This document shows, one piece after another, positions 5,164 through 12,758 of a stretch of DNA of 33,266 nucleotides (within the stretch, counting starts at the first letter, position 1; each line of letters begins with the position of its first letter). The DNA comes from Crenothrix polyspora (lineage in GTDB: Bacteria; Pseudomonadota; Gammaproteobacteria; Methylococcales; Methylomonadaceae): positions 1-33,266 of the forward strand of contig NZ_FUKI01000170.1 in NCBI RefSeq assembly GCF_900163755.1, given 5' to 3'. The notes under the pieces are model-generated. The model made no database searches and was not told the origin of the DNA. It saw only the letters and a program-made list of their open reading frames with translations. The position numbers and the translations under genes are program-made.

Positions 5164-5264
5164 AGGAACGTGCATGAAATAACTTGAGCACATTCATGCT
5201 TCGACAAGCTCAGCACGAACGGAAGTGGAGTTTAAGTTGTTCAACTTATTTCATGCACATTCCT
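5164..5264. repeat. Palindromic element with embedded dispersed-repeat half-core
   Basis: The outer arms at 5164-5187 and 5241-5264 are inverted copies matching at 22 of 24 positions; the shared part includes GTGCATGAAATAA and its complement. Between them sits CTTCGACAAGCTCAG followed by CACGAACGG (5199-5222), which is one half of the inner hairpin of the repeat family found at 1-89, 7515-7643 and 33198-33266. The element is therefore a composite of two palindromic repeats. It ends about 40 bases before the mntA start and creates a spurious upstream extension of that reading frame. Confidence 0.85.
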
Positions 5265-5303
5265 AACTATTCGGTACATTCACTTCTTTGCAAATACGCC
5301 CTA

Positions 5304-5732
5304 ATGATCCAGCTCTTTAACAGCAGCCATCTTTTAAATAAAAATGGCCTTGTGGTCACCCAGCTTCGTTCGGCTTTGCCAGACGTTATGGCCATTTATG
5401 CGTTTGGTAGTCGCATTCAGGGCGTAGCGCGAGCTAGCAGCGATTTAGATTTGGCAGTATTAACCCCAGGTTATACTGATCCATTATTGCTATGGCAGTT
5501 GTCGGGGGATTTAGCTGAGCAGGTGCAGTGTGATATCGATTTGCTGGATTTACGGGCTGCCAGTACTGTAATGCAGTATCAAATTATTATTACTGGCCGA
5601 TTGTTATGGGGTGACAAATTGGCGGTAGGGTTGTTTGAATGTTTTGTTTTGAGTGAAAAAACTGCGCTGAATACAGCCAGAGCTGATTTATTGGCAGATA
5701 TAGTTAAAAAAGGCAAAATTTATGGTGGATGA
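5304..5732 (+). CDS. mntA: MntA-like antitoxin nucleotidyltransferase (MNT domain)
   Basis: From the ATG at 5304 this is a 142-residue minimal nucleotidyltransferase. The catalytic signature GSRIQGVARASSDLDL has G35-S36 and the metal-binding pair D47/D49, the expected GSX10DXD pattern. In characterised HEPN-MNT modules the MNT protein is the antitoxin and attaches AMP to a tyrosine of the partner toxin. The frame stays open upstream to 5184, but that extension runs through the palindromic element and lacks family similarity, so the internal start is preferred. It overlaps the HEPN gene by 11 bases, implying translational coupling. Here the antitoxin gene comes first, whereas in the studied Shewanella pair the toxin gene is upstream. 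Confidence in the family is high; activity is inferred. Confidence 0.88.
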   Translation: MIQLFNSSHLLNKNGLVVTQLRSALPDVMAIYAFGSRIQGVARASSDLDLAVLTPGYTDPLLLWQLSGDLAEQVQCDIDLLDLRAASTVMQYQIIITGRLLWGDKLAVGLFECFVLSEKTALNTARADLLADIVKKGKIYGG

Positions 5733-6147
5733 TGTTTTGATTAACAAATCGGCCAGTATTGAGCGCTGTGTTGCGCGGGTGCGGCAAGAATACGCCGCTT
5801 CCGAAAATTTTGCCACTGATTTTACGCGCCAAGATGCAGCGATTTTAAATATTCAACGCGCCTGTGAGGCCGCCCTGGATATGGGGCAGCATCTCATCCG
5901 TCGTGAGCGATTGGGTGTGCCGCAAAGTGCGCGTGATGTATTTACCTTACTGGCGCAAGCCGCCTGGATTGACAGTTCATTGGCCGATGCGCTAAAACGT
6001 ATGGTTGGTTTTCGTAACATTGCCGTACATGAGTATCAGCGCTTATTACTGCCGATTACTGTCAGTATTATTACGCAGCATTTGGACGAATTTTTGCAAT
6101 ACAGCGCTGCTATTCTTATGCGAGATGTTAATAATAAAACAAAATAA
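5722..6147 (+). CDS. hepT: HepT-like HEPN toxin (putative RNase)
   Basis: This 141-residue, mostly helical protein pairs with the MNT gene directly upstream. The diagnostic HEPN RNase motif RX4HXY is present exactly as R98-NIAV-H103-E-Y105. In studied HepT toxins the R and H form the RNase active site, and the tyrosine is the residue that MntA modifies with AMP to block toxicity. The intact motif suggests a working toxin, not a relic. It starts with ATG inside the end of mntA (11-base overlap) and is followed after 20 bases by a hairpin with a T-tract, so the two genes form one short transcription unit. The RNA target is unknown; tRNA cleavage is known for some family members. Confidence 0.9.
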   Translation: MVDDVLINKSASIERCVARVRQEYAASENFATDFTRQDAAILNIQRACEAALDMGQHLIRRERLGVPQSARDVFTLLAQAAWIDSSLADALKRMVGFRNIAVHEYQRLLLPITVSIITQHLDEFLQYSAAILMRDVNNKTK

Positions 6148-7667: not shown

Positions 7668-8879
7668 CTAATTGTTGGTTTTATACCCATCGGTCAGGGT
7701 TTTAAGAAAGGCAACCAGAGCTTTTATTTCTTCGGTATTCAGGTTAAGTTCTCCCAACTCATTAATATTTACATTTTGGGTAACTTCTGGCTTTGGCCAA
7801 CAGCCCTGTTTAAGGGCATCAGCTTCGGTAACCCACGCCTTTTTGCAAACTGGCTTTATGTCACGGTTACTGTAAAAATCGGTTATGCCTTCCAGTGTTT
7901 TGAAGTAACCATTGTGCATATAAGGCTCGGTTTTAGCAATATTGCGTAAGGTGGGTACTTTAAATTTGCCATTTTCGGCAGTCTCATGGACAACACCGCC
8001 CAAGCCTTTGTCCACAAATTTGCGGCCTTCTGGATTAAGTCTGCTAGGTAGTTGATAAAATGGATTATTAGGATTTTGGGGGACACCTAAATTATCATAA
8101 GAAAAATCAGTAAACAATGGTGGTGTGCCATCTTCTGCGGGGCGGCTAGGGTGACAGGCAGCACAATTGCCTTTATTTTCGTCTTCAAACAGTTGGCGGC
8201 CACGCTTTTCCTGATCGGTGAATTTGGCTTTACCGGCCAGAAAATAATCATATTTAGACGTGAAAGGTCTAAATATTGGTGTGCGCTCAAAGGCGGCAAG
8301 CGCATCGGCAATTTTATTATAAGCGCTGTTAGCGTTGTTGAATGCATTAGTGCCATAGACCTGGATAAACAGTTTTGCGTAGCTGGCTTTGCGTACTTTG
8401 TTGACGACGGTGTTTTTGTCAGGATTGGCCATTTCAAGCGGATTCAGGAACGGTCCTTTGGCTTGCTCTGCCAGGGTTGCGGCACGGCCATCCAAAAATT
8501 GTCCGCCGATGTACAAGCCTTCTTTACTGTCGTAATGAAAGGGGGGGCTGAAAGCGTTATAAAGTACCATCGGTGTATTGCGGTTGCCTTTAAGGTGGGG
8601 CAACGCGCCATCAGACGTGGGTTGATTTTTATCAGGATCGATAAAAAATGTTTTAGGGTTATGACAGCTGGCACAGGCTTGGCCGACAGGCGTGGACAAG
8701 TTAGTGTCAAAAAACAATTGTTGCCCCAGTTTTTCTTTGGCTGTTAAAGCGCTAGTTTTAGCGGCAACCAATTCACCCGCATTGACAACACAGGCTGTGG
8801 TAAGAAAAATCAGGCCAATCCCCCAGTTCATTGAAAATTTCAACTGAGCCGAGTTGATTTGATGTTGTGTATGTTTCAT
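7668..8879 (-). CDS. Di-haem cytochrome c peroxidase / MauG-family protein
   Basis: This 403-residue exported protein begins with a Sec-type signal (hydrophobic core about residues 19-34, ending near VVNAG). It has two haem c attachment motifs, CASCH (69-73) and CAACH (239-243), spaced as in the bacterial CCP/MauG family. In that family one haem transfers electrons and the other is the peroxidatic or oxidising site. Conserved stretches such as FLDGRAATLAEQAKGP and KVPTLRNIAKTEPYMHNG support the family. It probably acts in the periplasm or at the cell surface, reducing hydrogen peroxide or oxidising a protein partner. It follows the porin gene on the same strand after a 147-base gap, so it may share the Fur-box promoter. 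The start has no strong ribosome-binding site. Confidence 0.92.
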   Translation of the reverse strand: MKHTQHQINSAQLKFSMNWGIGLIFLTTACVVNAGELVAAKTSALTAKEKLGQQLFFDTNLSTPVGQACASCHNPKTFFIDPDKNQPTSDGALPHLKGNRNTPMVLYNAFSPPFHYDSKEGLYIGGQFLDGRAATLAEQAKGPFLNPLEMANPDKNTVVNKVRKASYAKLFIQVYGTNAFNNANSAYNKIADALAAFERTPIFRPFTSKYDYFLAGKAKFTDQEKRGRQLFEDENKGNCAACHPSRPAEDGTPPLFTDFSYDNLGVPQNPNNPFYQLPSRLNPEGRKFVDKGLGGVVHETAENGKFKVPTLRNIAKTEPYMHNGYFKTLEGITDFYSNRDIKPVCKKAWVTEADALKQGCWPKPEVTQNVNINELGELNLNTEEIKALVAFLKTLTDGYKTNN

Positions 8880-9026: not shown

Positions 9027-10472
9027 TTAAAAAATAAAACCGAAACCCAAATTAAAATCGTCAGACAGCGGATTGGTATTCTCATCCTTGGCGACACGGT
9101 TACGGTAATCGGCTTTAACAACTACATTAGGGATAGGTTTGTATTGTAGCCCTACCTGAAAAATCTCCCAGTCCTGGTGCGGGTCGTCAGCCAACACGCC
9201 AATACTGCCAGGTGCTTTAGCGACGGTATCGAGTCTTTCGTAACGGAAAAATGGTGCGAGATATTGGGTGCTATTAGCAAATAAATGCGGCATGATGTCG
9301 TAGCCTAATTCGGTGTACCAGCCAAAATTTTCTGAGCCGATGACCTCACCCTTCGCTTGGCTGAGTAAATCGGCATTACCAATACTACCCCACGAACCCA
9401 GTGCGCGAAACTCTAAACCACGGTATTTCCATTGTAAATGGCCTTCGTAAAGCTGGGTAAATGCATCCACTTTTTTGCCTACAAAAGTTTGATCTTGGCC
9501 AGAATTACCCACATACGCAGAGCCGCCGACCGAGAGTCCGGGTATCTGCGGTGGTGCGTAGTCTAATCGGGCAATATAACCAAAGCTTTCGGCTTTAGCT
9601 TCAGTGCCGCTGCCCCGGCCTTCCCTAATACCAGAAGAGCCAAATTCTTTGGCATTTAAAGCGTTGGTTACGTAGGTGGTATAGGTTAAATTGGGCAGCA
9701 GTTCACCAAACAAACCTACACCCACTTCGCGCCAAGTGCTGGGAATGATGCGCTGTTCAACTTCTGGGCGATTGTTGCCGAAATAAAACGGCGGCTCATG
9801 GATGGTGTTGATAAAGCCCATTGGCATTAGCACCAAACCGGCGCGAATATTGGCTTTTTGGTTAATAAAAAAATCCAGTGCAGCAAACTCTACCGAGACT
9901 TCGCCTTTTTCTTCCGCGCCTTCACCCGTCGTACCATGTTCAAATTCAATCTCACTGTTAAACAGGATGTGGTCGGTGAACTTATATCCGGCATACAGTA
10001 CGATACGCTCCAAATCGGCGTTATCGCTTTCGGTGCCTTTATCATCCACTTTGGCTTGATAACTGGCTTGGCCATAGCCGCCTATCGACAAGCCCTTGCC
10101 AGCGGCATAAATTTTGGAGGCAGCAGGGCCTAAGCCATAAGCGCTTTTGTATTTAGCCTCTTCGGGAATGGCTAGATTAGTACGCAGTTTTTCGACTTCT
10201 TGGCTGAGCACATCGGTTTTGCGCTCCAGATTTTTTACATCTGTATTGGCTGATTTTGTAGCAACGGGTTCAGAGCTTGGTGTATCTGTATTGGATGATT
10301 TTTCAACCGCATGGTGTTGATTACGTAATTCATCAATTTGCTTTTGTTGCGCTCGAATAACCTGCCACATTTCATCCATCGTGGCAGGTTTATCTAGGGC
10401 ATAAGCAGGTGTAGTTAAGCTAACACAGGCTAGCAAGATGGCGTGTTTTAAAGGCTTAATAATCATGTTCAT
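9027..10472 (-). CDS. LbtU-like outer-membrane porin with N-terminal coiled coil
   Basis: From the ATG at 10472 the protein has about 481 residues: a signal peptide ending in TPAYA, a short heptad-rich coiled coil (MDEMWQVIRAQQKQIDELRNQ, then a Ser/Thr-rich linker and a second helical stretch), and a long beta-barrel region of alternating strands ending in a terminal phenylalanine (GFGFIF), the outer-membrane assembly signal. This architecture resembles the LbtU family, whose Legionella member is the legiobactin siderophore receptor, but phosphate-selective-type porins look similar. The reading frame stays open to 10535; the later start is chosen because it begins a normal signal peptide. A Fur-box-like site and promoter lie immediately upstream. 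Porin is confident; iron uptake is inferred. Confidence 0.82.
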   Translation of the reverse strand: MNMIIKPLKHAILLACVSLTTPAYALDKPATMDEMWQVIRAQQKQIDELRNQHHAVEKSSNTDTPSSEPVATKSANTDVKNLERKTDVLSQEVEKLRTNLAIPEEAKYKSAYGLGPAASKIYAAGKGLSIGGYGQASYQAKVDDKGTESDNADLERIVLYAGYKFTDHILFNSEIEFEHGTTGEGAEEKGEVSVEFAALDFFINQKANIRAGLVLMPMGFINTIHEPPFYFGNNRPEVEQRIIPSTWREVGVGLFGELLPNLTYTTYVTNALNAKEFGSSGIREGRGSGTEAKAESFGYIARLDYAPPQIPGLSVGGSAYVGNSGQDQTFVGKKVDAFTQLYEGHLQWKYRGLEFRALGSWGSIGNADLLSQAKGEVIGSENFGWYTELGYDIMPHLFANSTQYLAPFFRYERLDTVAKAPGSIGVLADDPHQDWEIFQVGLQYKPIPNVVVKADYRNRVAKDENTNPLSDDFNLGFGFIF

Positions 10473-10505
10473 GGTGTATTGCTCGTAGCAGGATGTTTTT
10501 GGCAA

Positions 10506-10550
10506 AGTATAAAGTAAATACTTATGTAAATGCAAACGATTCTCATTAAT
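10506..10550 (-). promoter_or_regulatory. Promoter with overlapping Fur-box-like operator
   Basis: Read on the minus strand, a 19-base site ATTAATGAGAATCGTTTGC (10550-10532) matches the Fur consensus at 13 of 19 positions by my count, including the AATGAGAATC core. It overlaps a candidate -35 box TTGCAT (10535-10530), followed after 18 bases by TATACT (10511-10506) as -10. The porin start codon is 34 bases further on. This layout would let iron-loaded Fur block RNA polymerase, making the porin and probably the peroxidase iron-repressed. Confidence 0.6.
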
Positions 10551-10652: not shown

Positions 10653-11696
10653 ATGAACAAACAGAGAAAGGCAATAGCATTGATTTCCGGTGGCCTGGAT
10701 TCCATGCTGGCGGCAAGAACTATCCAAGAACAAGGCATCCATGTTGAAGGTATTAATTTTTTCACGGGGTTTTGTGTGGAAGGCCATACGCATGCCATTC
10801 GCGAAAAAGATAAAGCCAAGCCCAAACGTAATAATTCCCTGTGGGTGGCCGAGCAACTGGGTATCAAGCTGCATATTGTCGATGTCATCGAAGAATACAA
10901 AAATGTGCTGCTTAATCCCAAGCACGGTTATGGCCAGCACATGAATCCGTGTCTGGATTGTAAAATCTTCATGGTGAATAAGGCCAAGCAATGGATAGTT
11001 GAAAACGATTTCGATTTCATTATTACCGGTGAAGTCATCGGCCAGCGGCCTATGTCGCAGCGTAAAGCTACTATGCCGATAGTGGCTAGAGAATCTGGTG
11101 CGGACGACTTGCTGTTGCGGCCTTTGTGCGCTAAAAATTTACCCGCCACTTTGCCAGAACGCGAAGGTTGGGTGGATCGGGAGAAATTGCATGACATCAC
11201 GGGGCGTTCACGTAAACCGCAGATGGCGATGGCCAAAGACTTTGGTATTGATGAATATTCGCAACCCGCTGGCGGTTGCTGCTTCCTGACCGATAAATAT
11301 TATTCCGCGAAACTGGTGGATTTATGGAAGGCGCGGGACAGCCGTGAATATGAGCTGGACGATGTGATGCTGTTAAAAGTCGGTAGGCATATACGGCCAC
11401 AGCCGCATTACAAGCTGATTATTGCCCGTGAAGAAGGTGAAGGCCGTTTTTTGGAAGGCTATAAAAAAGATTATATCAGCATGAAATGCGTTAGCCATCA
11501 AGGCCCATTGGTGCTAATTGATGGCACGATTGCCGCCGAAGATTTGTATCTGGCGGCCAGCATTACCGCACGTTATGGTCAGGGGCGCGAGGCTGAGCAG
11601 GTTGAAATTAACGTGCTTTATCAAGACGGTGCTGAGCGTTGCTTACAGGTTAAACCCATGCTTGAGCAAGATATTCCCAAAGCGTGGTTCATATGA
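10653..11696 (+). CDS. PP-loop ATPase, tRNA thiolation-like (MnmA/ThiI-type)
   Basis: This 347-residue protein has the PP-loop motif SGGLDS (12-17) of the ATP-pyrophosphatase family, which adenylates tRNA or other substrates before sulfur insertion. A CXXC pair (C100/C103 in NPCLDCK) and a later cysteine pair GGCC (C209/C210) could hold an iron-sulfur cluster, as in the three-cysteine [4Fe-4S] thiolases TtcA and TtuA. It lacks the rhodanese domain of bacterial ThiI. Relatives are often annotated as tRNA (5-methylaminomethyl-2-thiouridylate) methyltransferases, which is probably misleading. Its stop overlaps the start of a TusA-like sulfur carrier (ATGA), strongly suggesting that TusA delivers the sulfur. 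GGGA lies before the ATG. The modified substrate is not known. Confidence 0.82.
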   Translation: MNKQRKAIALISGGLDSMLAARTIQEQGIHVEGINFFTGFCVEGHTHAIREKDKAKPKRNNSLWVAEQLGIKLHIVDVIEEYKNVLLNPKHGYGQHMNPCLDCKIFMVNKAKQWIVENDFDFIITGEVIGQRPMSQRKATMPIVARESGADDLLLRPLCAKNLPATLPEREGWVDREKLHDITGRSRKPQMAMAKDFGIDEYSQPAGGCCFLTDKYYSAKLVDLWKARDSREYELDDVMLLKVGRHIRPQPHYKLIIAREEGEGRFLEGYKKDYISMKCVSHQGPLVLIDGTIAAEDLYLAASITARYGQGREAEQVEINVLYQDGAERCLQVKPMLEQDIPKAWFI

Positions 11697-11956
11697 CGCG
11701 GGAGGTATTGAATGCGCGGCGCTTGTTATGCCCGTTGCCAGTGATCCGCACCCAAGATAAGGTTAAGAAAATGCAGCCAGGCGATCAACTGGAGGTAATT
11801 TGTACTGACCCTGGTGTAATGCAGGATATTCCCACCTGGTGCCGTATTAATGGCCATAAGGTGCTGGAATTATTGTCGGGTGATCATGAATATACGGTGA
11901 TTTTAGAAGTGGGTGATGATAAGTTAAATAAACTACCTATCGACCTTACTATGTAA
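11693..11956 (+). CDS. TusA-family sulfur-carrier protein
   Basis: This 87-residue protein carries the TusA signature LCPLPVIRTQDKVKKMQPGD, with the sulfur-carrying cysteine at C13 in a CPLP motif, and the later segment TDPGVMQDIPTWCRINGH typical of the family. TusA proteins accept persulfide from a cysteine desulfurase or rhodanese and pass it on, in E. coli to the TusBCD/E relay for tRNA wobble-uridine thiolation. Here the ATG overlaps the stop of the PP-loop gene by four bases, so the carrier is probably dedicated to that protein. An in-frame GTG at 11684 is less likely than this coupled ATG. Whether it is the genome's only TusA cannot be seen. Confidence 0.9.
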   Translation: MTREVLNARRLLCPLPVIRTQDKVKKMQPGDQLEVICTDPGVMQDIPTWCRINGHKVLELLSGDHEYTVILEVGDDKLNKLPIDLTM

Positions 11957-11990: not shown

Positions 11991-12758
11991 ATGAATAAAA
12001 CCCTTATTTATGCCCTGGATTTTGACGGTGTTATTTGCGATAGCGCCGTAGAAACAGCAATGACTGGTTGGAAAGCTGCTTGTACTCTTTGGCCCGATAT
12101 GCCAAAGACTATTCAGCCAGACATGATTGAGCGTTTTCGTGTTTTAAGACCCATCATAGAAACCGGTTACGAAGCGATATTAGTTATGCGCTTACTCTAT
12201 CTAAATGAGTCTATCGAGGCAGTTTACAGCAGCTATAATGATAAAATTAAAACGCTATTAGAAGAAGCTCAGGTTTCTGTTAATGACTTAAAAAAACTGT
12301 TTGGTAAAACCCGTGACCAATGGATAGCTGATGATTTAGCTGATTGGATTAACATGAATCCTTTATTTGCAGGGGTAGCAGAAAAACTGCAACAGCTTGG
12401 TCAACACAATACGTGGTACATTATCACGACCAAACAAGAGCGTTTTGTTAAGCACATACTCAAAGCCTATGCAATTGAATTAGCTGATGAGCGAATTTTC
12501 GGTTTGGATCGTAATATGAGTAAAATCGACGTGTTGAAAGCTTTGTTGCATAGCCACAATACTGAAACACTTTACTTTGTTGAAGACAGATTGCCCACAT
12601 TGATAAATGTATTAGGCACCAACACATTAAGCCGTGTTAAATTGATTTTTGCCTTGTGGGGATATAATACTGCAGAAGATAAAGCCTTGGCTGCAAAGCA
12701 GCCCTTTATTTTACAGCAACTTGAGGATTTTTTGGCATGGTATCGTTTAATGCGATAA
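11991..12758 (+). CDS. HAD-superfamily hydrolase
   Basis: This 255-residue protein shows the haloacid dehalogenase fold motifs. Motif I is LDFDGVICD with nucleophile D10 and acid/base D12. Motif II is the threonine of WYIITTKQERF, followed by a later lysine, and motif IV is VEDRLPT in the C-terminal third. A helical cap of about 100 residues sits between motif I and motif II, consistent with a C1-cap phosphatase. HAD enzymes of this size usually remove phosphate from small metabolites through an aspartyl-phosphate. It starts 34 bases after the TusA gene and may be co-transcribed with the sulfur-transfer pair. The substrate is unknown. Confidence 0.85.
   Translation: MNKTLIYALDFDGVICDSAVETAMTGWKAACTLWPDMPKTIQPDMIERFRVLRPIIETGYEAILVMRLLYLNESIEAVYSSYNDKIKTLLEEAQVSVNDLKKLFGKTRDQWIADDLADWINMNPLFAGVAEKLQQLGQHNTWYIITTKQERFVKHILKAYAIELADERIFGLDRNMSKIDVLKALLHSHNTETLYFVEDRLPTLINVLGTNTLSRVKLIFALWGYNTAEDKALAAKQPFILQQLEDFLAWYRLMR

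Follow-up and report, generated by a model that had tools for sequence, protein, structure and literature searches.

A PP-loop/NFACT-R_2 protein with a TusA partner as a probable replacement for ThiI in the synthesis of tRNA 4-thiouridine

4-thiouridine (s4U), a near-UV target, is among the commonest sulfur marks of tRNA, and its synthesis in bacteria is ascribed to ThiI. The locus described here raises the question of what is thiolated by a PP-loop protein whose gene runs into that of a TusA-like protein, TusA being a persulfide carrier, in a host genome with no full ThiI. Both genes lie in the window, i.e. the whole stretch of 33,266 nucleotides that was analysed (Table 1), and an earlier note had described them as a compact two-protein sulfur-insertion system, perhaps iron-sulfur dependent, with a tRNA or a cofactor as substrate. 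Our analysis points to tRNA: with a probability of roughly 0.8, the pair makes tRNA 4-thiouridine, most likely at U8, and replaces ThiI. The genomic case for this product is strong but indirect, as it runs through RudS and ThiI; what we infer around it is the site at position 8, the presence of a cluster, the role played by each domain and the precise route of the sulfur.

The PP-loop gene starts with ATG and encodes 347 aa, and its TGA stop shares the ATGA with the start of TusA, as had been noted before, which suggests translational coupling of the two genes (the longest TusA frame called by the program starts with GTG at 11684). The C-terminal part of the protein lies far above the gathering cut-off of NFACT-R_2 (PF18297, 122.8 vs 26.9 bits), while the SGGLDS motif (141/143 homologues) and HUP fold matches spanning model residues 2-243 identify the remainder as a PP-loop ATP pyrophosphatase. 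In Pfam, this domain scores between two families, with 43.7 bits to the MnmA HUP domain and 36.8 bits to ThiI. Neither protein reached any NCBIfam equivalog cut-off: the 347-aa protein stayed below those of MnmA (NF001138, 41.1 vs 284; TIGR00420, 39.5 vs 236.95) and ThiI (TIGR00342, 36.3 vs 264.5 bits, matching model positions 172-313 only), and the 87-aa protein below that of canonical TusA (NF001423, 51.3 vs 78). The latter passed the gathering cut-off of PF01206 (77.8 vs 28.6 bits), and C13 of its CPxP motif was found in 117/117 linked TusAs. No THUMP match was found in the 347-aa protein (Pfam, E up to 1), whose PP-loop domain begins at residue 4-6, nor was a rhodanese match (Pfam and NCBIfam, E up to 1), in agreement with its description as rhodanese-less. 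By membership it is no ThiI, given that both THUMP and score fail, yet we predict that it performs ThiI's job on tRNA. From the earlier account, the pairing, the domains and the Fe-S-type cysteine set (the CxxC of C100-C103 and the GGCC of residues 207-210) fit the sequence and the genome distribution; overlooked were the C-terminal NFACT-R_2 domain (244-346) and the mostly conserved C41 and C159. The name "thiolase" used there was wrong, since thiolases cleave thioesters and a tRNA sulfurtransferase was meant.

Table 1. Positions of the features of the PP-loop/TusA locus in the window.
Feature	Position	Strand	Basis
PP-loop / NFACT-R_2 protein, putative tRNA 4-thiouridine synthase (ThiI replacement)	10653..11696	+	ORF; Pfam NFACT-R_2 122.8 bits, tRNA_Me_trans 43.7, ThiI 36.8
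SGGLDS PP-loop motif, residues 12-17 (ATP binding, adenylation)	10686..10703	+	each of S12-S17 identical in 141/143 (1 gap, 1 other letter)
C41 in loop common to most of the family	10773..10775	+	Cys in 138/143 (2 gaps, 3 replaced) and in 26/26 phylum-sample loci
NPCLDC, residues 98-103; CxxC as two of three proposed cluster ligands	10944..10961	+	C100 and C103 in 142/142 and 26/26
GGCC, residues 207-210; putative third ligand (C210) and putative sulfur acceptor (C209)	11271..11282	+	C210 in 143/143, C209 in 139/143; both in 26/26
NFACT-R_2 domain, residues 244-346, putative tRNA-binding domain	11382..11690	+	Pfam; own-genome match at the same place; fold match to 5h3w and 8s1u
ATGA stop/start overlap	11693..11696	+	sequence
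TusA-like sulfur carrier, 87 aa	11693..11956	+	PF01206 77.8 bits; NCBIfam TusA equivalog 51.3 vs cut-off 78
TusA CPxP motif, C13-P16, persulfide cysteine	11729..11740	+	C13, P14 and P16 each in 117/117 linked TusAs

Elsewhere in the window, translations judged by eye revealed a nucleotidyltransferase-domain ORF followed by a HepT/DUF86-like ORF (5184-6147), resembling an MntA-HepT toxin-antitoxin pair, and, on the - strand, two ORFs that diverge from the PP-loop gene: one encoding a cytochrome c peroxidase-like protein that carries two CxxCH motifs (7668-8879) and, upstream of it, a porin-like one (9027-10535). A HAD-like gene downstream of the pair (11991-12758) was considered as a third partner and rejected, a similar gene being present at 0/71 named loci with more than 1500 nt of room.

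The pairing itself is widely conserved. We searched a class sample of 281 genomes, drawn evenly from the class, and a phylum sample of 269 genomes, with 19 genomes common to both and 531 in combination (counted from the genome numbering). NFACT-R_2 matches were found in 143/281 class genomes at 144 loci in all, 143 of which encode a PP-loop protein (hereafter the family); of the two loci in G153, one is a fragment lying at the end of its contig. Only G024 departs from this (L237, G024:C1:280563-280727): its NFACT-R_2 match is a fragment with an internal stop, and a search of the locus found no PP-loop protein. By difference, the TusA gene persists there, as TusA was counted at 118 loci and a PP-loop partner at 117 of these. 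DUF1722 is absent from this genome, and the copy is seemingly decaying. The family gene is immediately followed by a TusA gene on the same strand at 117/143 class loci, that of the window included, and TusA is also downstream at 22/26 phylum-sample loci (at a distance of 660-800 nt in three of the 22). It also lies within 400 nt at 69/80 named loci, these being the best 80 of at least 556 relatives, all with at least 71% identity, proteobacterial as far as named and mostly methanotrophs. Among these best 80, the closest named relative of the 347-aa protein comes from Crenothrix polyspora (94%), followed by other methanotrophs. With TusA adjoining the gene so often in all three sets, the pairing is not chance. 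No TusA stands beside the gene at 26/143 class loci (three of which run off the contig), 4/26 phylum-sample loci and 11/80 named loci; a tree of 43 rows calls for 10 or more changes in the presence of the TusA neighbour. The exact spacing of the window was found at 49/117 loci, the window included (HMM register).

The gene content of the host, a Crenothrix-like methanotroph (3.92 Mb, 99.98% complete), narrows the possible products. The genome encodes MnmA (272.7 bits), a TtcA-like protein in which both CxxC motifs were recognised by eye, and a second TusA (G000:C5:36776), i.e. most of the genes that the earlier note had proposed to look for. Full ThiI is absent from the host genome, where the ThiI models matched the PP-loop/NFACT-R_2 gene and MnmA only. 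As MnmA and the TtcA-like protein cover s2U34 and s2C32, s4U8 is left without a maker among the PP-loop tRNA thiolations. Of the 169 family-bearing genomes, 64 were tested for full MnmA; 62 have it, and the two without it are drafts of about 360 and 470 contigs. This supports the earlier suggestion that the pair is distinct from the MnmA relay. The host also encodes RudS, as a complete TudS+DUF1722 protein (L272:2678-3619, G000:C5). This gene lies about 5 kb from that of the second TusA.

Family members and full ThiI never occurred together. The class sample contained 143 genomes with the family, 23 with full ThiI (21 over the cut-off and two full-length proteins at 246.5 and 253.8 bits) and 0 of 281 with both; the phylum sample contained 29, 84 and 0 of 269, respectively. 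In combination, 169 genomes carried the family, 103 full ThiI, none both and 259 of the 531 neither. G106, from the same order as the window, has no family member, full ThiI, DUF1722 or photolyase and offers a natural comparison genome that is predicted to be without s4U.

RudS, consisting of TudS and DUF1722, is reported to remove sulfur from 4-thiouridine in tRNA and to lower total 4-thiouridine (PMC11417400), and because of this activity we examined the distribution of DUF1722. It was found in 79 class genomes, namely 67/143 with the family, 12/23 with ThiI and 0/115 with neither (62, 12 and 0 without five weak partial matches). The 76 phylum-sample genomes with DUF1722 comprised 16 with the family, 60 with ThiI (four of them weak and partial) and 0/156 with neither, while the 26 DUF1722-bearing genomes outside the class split into 14 with the family from five GTDB families, 12 with ThiI from one GTDB family, and none with neither. 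In combination, DUF1722 was present in 151 genomes: 82/169 with the family, 69/103 with ThiI and 0/259 with neither. The pooled Fisher values (1e-40 and 4e-20, 531 genomes) overstate independence because the genomes are related, and as they ignore this relatedness they are not readable as probabilities. Within the seven GTDB families of the class that are mixed for the family gene, DUF1722 occurred in 4/8 genomes with the gene and 0/11 with neither (stratified P 0.025), and within the seven mixed for ThiI in 5/8 and 0/10, respectively (P 0.028); 11 genomes without a listed family label were left out of these stratified counts.

The eight best-scoring DUF1722 loci all encode full-length RudS, and the remaining matches were judged by frame length, with frames of at least 300 aa in 73/79 class and 71/76 phylum-sample genomes. 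The marker is imperfect, as the control search also matched E. coli, which is reported to lack RudS (PMC11417400), and some matches may therefore be DUF1722 alone. DUF1722 was absent from 76/143 family-bearing class genomes, so the link between the family and RudS is one-way. Photolyase, used as a control in the class sample, was found in 52/143 genomes with the family, 13/23 with ThiI and 71/115 with neither; this last group is therefore not simply poor in light-related genes. Since the family and full ThiI never co-occur in the 531 genomes and DUF1722 appears there only with one of them, the substrate is most likely tRNA uridine C4, which narrows the earlier choice between a tRNA and a cofactor. 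The pair is accordingly a candidate source of the RudS substrate in ThiI-less bacteria. In some family-bearing genomes, the DUF1722 (RudS) and photolyase genes adjoin (G195:C4:50400-51590, G242:C19:91097-92097), in line with a near-UV role of 4-thiouridine.

The fold does not choose between substrates. In an AlphaFold2 model built from 14 alignment rows (mean pLDDT 81, weakest at the cysteine loops of residues 42-57 and 205-216 with pLDDT below 50), the PP-loop part matched YcfA (Z 15.1), the ThiI-RNA complex 4kr6 (Z 15.0; 2.8 A over 167 residues, 23% identity) and LarE (Z 14.7) equally well, and MnmA (2hma, Z 13.5) was likewise not separated from ThiI. TM-scores over the query were 0.30-0.35 among the Foldseek matches listed, which included TtuA chains, but these did not appear in the 50 rows of the Z-score comparison. 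The C-terminal part matched FBPS (5h3w, Z 12.4, 2.2 A, 105 residues) and RqcH (8s1u, Z 12.2, 2.2 A, 103 residues), and shares its fold with the NFACT-R domain of RqcH/FbpA; unlike in those proteins, it is fused to a PP-loop enzyme, with neither NFACT-N nor a coiled coil.

The earlier note had made its reading depend on C100, C103 and C209, which are conserved in 142/142 (one truncated row lacks the columns of the first two), 142/142 and 139/143 class homologues (4 gaps), so that reading is not refuted; the invariant cysteine of the GGCC motif is, however, C210 (143/143) and not C209. C41 is kept in 138/143 (2 gaps, 3 replaced), and position 159 holds Cys in 114 and Ser in 29 class homologues. 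In the further phylum-sample proteins, C41, C100, C103, C209 and C210 were all found in 26/26, and C159 in 11/26. Aligned to E. coli MnmA (2der), C100 and C103 fall on Asp99 and Cys102, and C103 and C210 occupy the positions of MnmA's two catalytic cysteines. With C210 invariant as well, the invariant set is thus CxxC...C, the CxxC plus third conserved cysteine typical of [4Fe-4S] non-redox tRNA thiolases. Such a set is reported to hold a [4Fe-4S] cluster in NcsA (Cys142, Cys145 and Cys233; PMC10067955) and to bind the cluster or be required in archaeal ThiI, TtuA and TtcA (PMC5372739). By analogy, the 347-aa protein probably binds a [4Fe-4S] cluster via C100, C103 and C210.

Taken as a working mechanism, an IscS-type desulfurase would load a persulfide on Cys13 of the dedicated TusA, which would pass the sulfur to the enzyme, probably to C209 or else to the open iron of the cluster on C100/C103/C210. 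C209 and C41 may accept the persulfide first, and the fourth cluster iron might then carry the incoming sulfur, as has been proposed for NcsA and TtuA (PMC10067955). Binding of the tRNA, a task of THUMP/NFLD in ThiI, would fall to the NFACT-R_2 domain; uridine O4 would be adenylated by the PP-loop domain, and the sulfur would go to the activated base, displacing AMP.

Proteins without a TusA neighbour bear on the role of C41 and C209. Four divergent gamma proteins (L230, L233-L235), a single clade inside the gamma proteins in the 43-row tree, and two Fusobacteriota proteins have no C41, no C209 and no adjoining TusA, and keep the CxxC and one GGC cysteine; the C41 loop is shortened or Cys-less in such distant relatives. 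That C41 and C209 mark the use of TusA is only a hint from sequence comparison, because it comes from one clade and one distant group and because the other 22 TusA-less class loci keep C209. The plasmid collection contained three distant relatives, all from Fusobacteriota and with 37-38% identity. Two of these (L274:5007-5987 and L275:4971-5987) have the NPCxDC motif and just one GGC cysteine, and the 11 kb examined around them contained no TusA match. L274 is annotated as 7-cyano-7-deazaguanine synthase and the third relative as a member of the MnmA/TRMU family. The 29 records in which ThiI was matched do not include a 2.1-Mb Fusobacterium record that holds a distant relative and is possibly not a whole genome; this absence fits the exclusion of ThiI.

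Among known systems, the family shares with ThiI a PP-loop domain of the same fold and the tie to the RudS marker; unlike ThiI, it has no NFLD/THUMP and no rhodanese, while possessing a C-terminal NFACT-R_2 domain, an added CxxC and a TusA partner. The archaeal Fe-S subclass of ThiI retains THUMP. In this subclass (Methanococcus), a CxxC and one further Cys in the catalytic domain are reported to hold a cluster, as proposed here, and sulfide is usable in vitro (PMC5372739), whereas the family relies on NFACT-R_2 and TusA. TtcA, TtuA and NcsA have the same three-cysteine CxxC...C, reported to hold [4Fe-4S] in those enzymes (PMC5372739, PMC10067955). The family protein has a recognition domain different from theirs and lacks the further CxxC pairs for the zinc fingers of TtuA and NcsA, and the host has a separate TtcA-like protein besides it. 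With MnmA it shares the PP-loop HUP domain and the positions of C100, C103 and C210 (on Asp99 and the catalytic pair of the E. coli protein), and it differs in having no Pfam match to the further MnmA domains and in coexisting with full MnmA.

Several other readings were considered. Persulfide/disulfide chemistry has been proposed for E. coli ThiI (Cys456/Cys344) and MnmA (Cys199/Cys102). A 4-thiouridine synthase of this kind, working with no Fe-S cluster, C210 taking the persulfide of TusA and C103 resolving it, is a possibility of lesser weight that would suit a persulfide carrier as partner and the match of C103 and C210 to the catalytic pair of MnmA, in which a cluster is itself disputed in print (PMC11784392). 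It leaves aside that C100 is just as invariant (142/142), which completes the three-Cys set of NcsA, archaeal ThiI and TtuA (PMC10067955, PMC5372739). The site is a separate matter: as RudS lowers total 4-thiouridine and the present data do not fix the position, and as some tRNAs are reported to bear s4U at position 9 as well (PMC11417400), the pair could thiolate a tRNA uridine elsewhere than at position 8, a minor or lineage-specific site on which RudS acts too. We consider this unlikely, since ThiI acts at U8 and the exclusion between it and the family is exact in the genomes searched.

Two further readings concern products other than 4-thiouridine. A paralogue or helper of MnmA making 2-thiouridine at position 34 could be argued from the slightly better score of the HUP domain to MnmA than to ThiI (43.7 vs 36.8) and from the public "MnmA/TRMU family protein" annotation of a distant relative, but the MnmA cut-off is widely missed (41.1 vs 284 bits), full MnmA is already present in nearly all family-bearing genomes tested (62/64), and both the exclusion of ThiI and the tie to RudS would go unexplained, which makes this role very improbable. 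We give equally little credit to a cofactor or small molecule as recipient of the sulfur, in the manner of LarE or of thiamine synthesis. LarE ranks among the top fold matches (Z 14.7) and ThiI is reported to serve thiamine in E. coli as well (PMC5372745); on the other side, NFACT-R_2 is described as RNA-binding in Pfam, and the reported target of RudS is tRNA (PMC11417400). The making of tRNA 4-thiouridine in place of ThiI thus remains our preferred reading, and no 4-thiouridine measurement in a family-bearing organism was found in the literature examined.

Burroughs and Aravind reportedly predicted the PP-loop/NFACT-R fusion as an RNA-thiolating enzyme (RNA Biology, 2014). No description of a PP-loop/NFACT-R_2 and TusA pair was found in the open-access literature, among the matches listed, and as far as searched there, the pairing with TusA, the exclusion of ThiI and the link to RudS are new. 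At even odds, the whole picture may hold in which the family is a second and non-orthologous 4-thiouridine synthase of bacteria, found widely in Pseudomonadota, with NFACT-R in place of THUMP, a dedicated TusA in place of rhodanese, a three-cysteine [4Fe-4S] cluster, and C41/C209 as the landing site of the sulfur from TusA, accounting for the ThiI-less RudS bacteria. If the preferred reading is true, TusA would feed a tRNA thiolase directly, without TusBCD/E. RudS bacteria without ThiI would gain a named gene pair; two such groups are left unexplained in the RudS study, where "Group B" comprises thermophilic sulfate reducers (PMC11417400). In the class sample, the family is six times as frequent as full ThiI (143 vs 23), while ThiI is the commoner of the two in the other lineages of the phylum sample (84 vs 29). 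On the preferred reading, the annotation of thiI would greatly understate how common 4-thiouridine is in Gammaproteobacteria.
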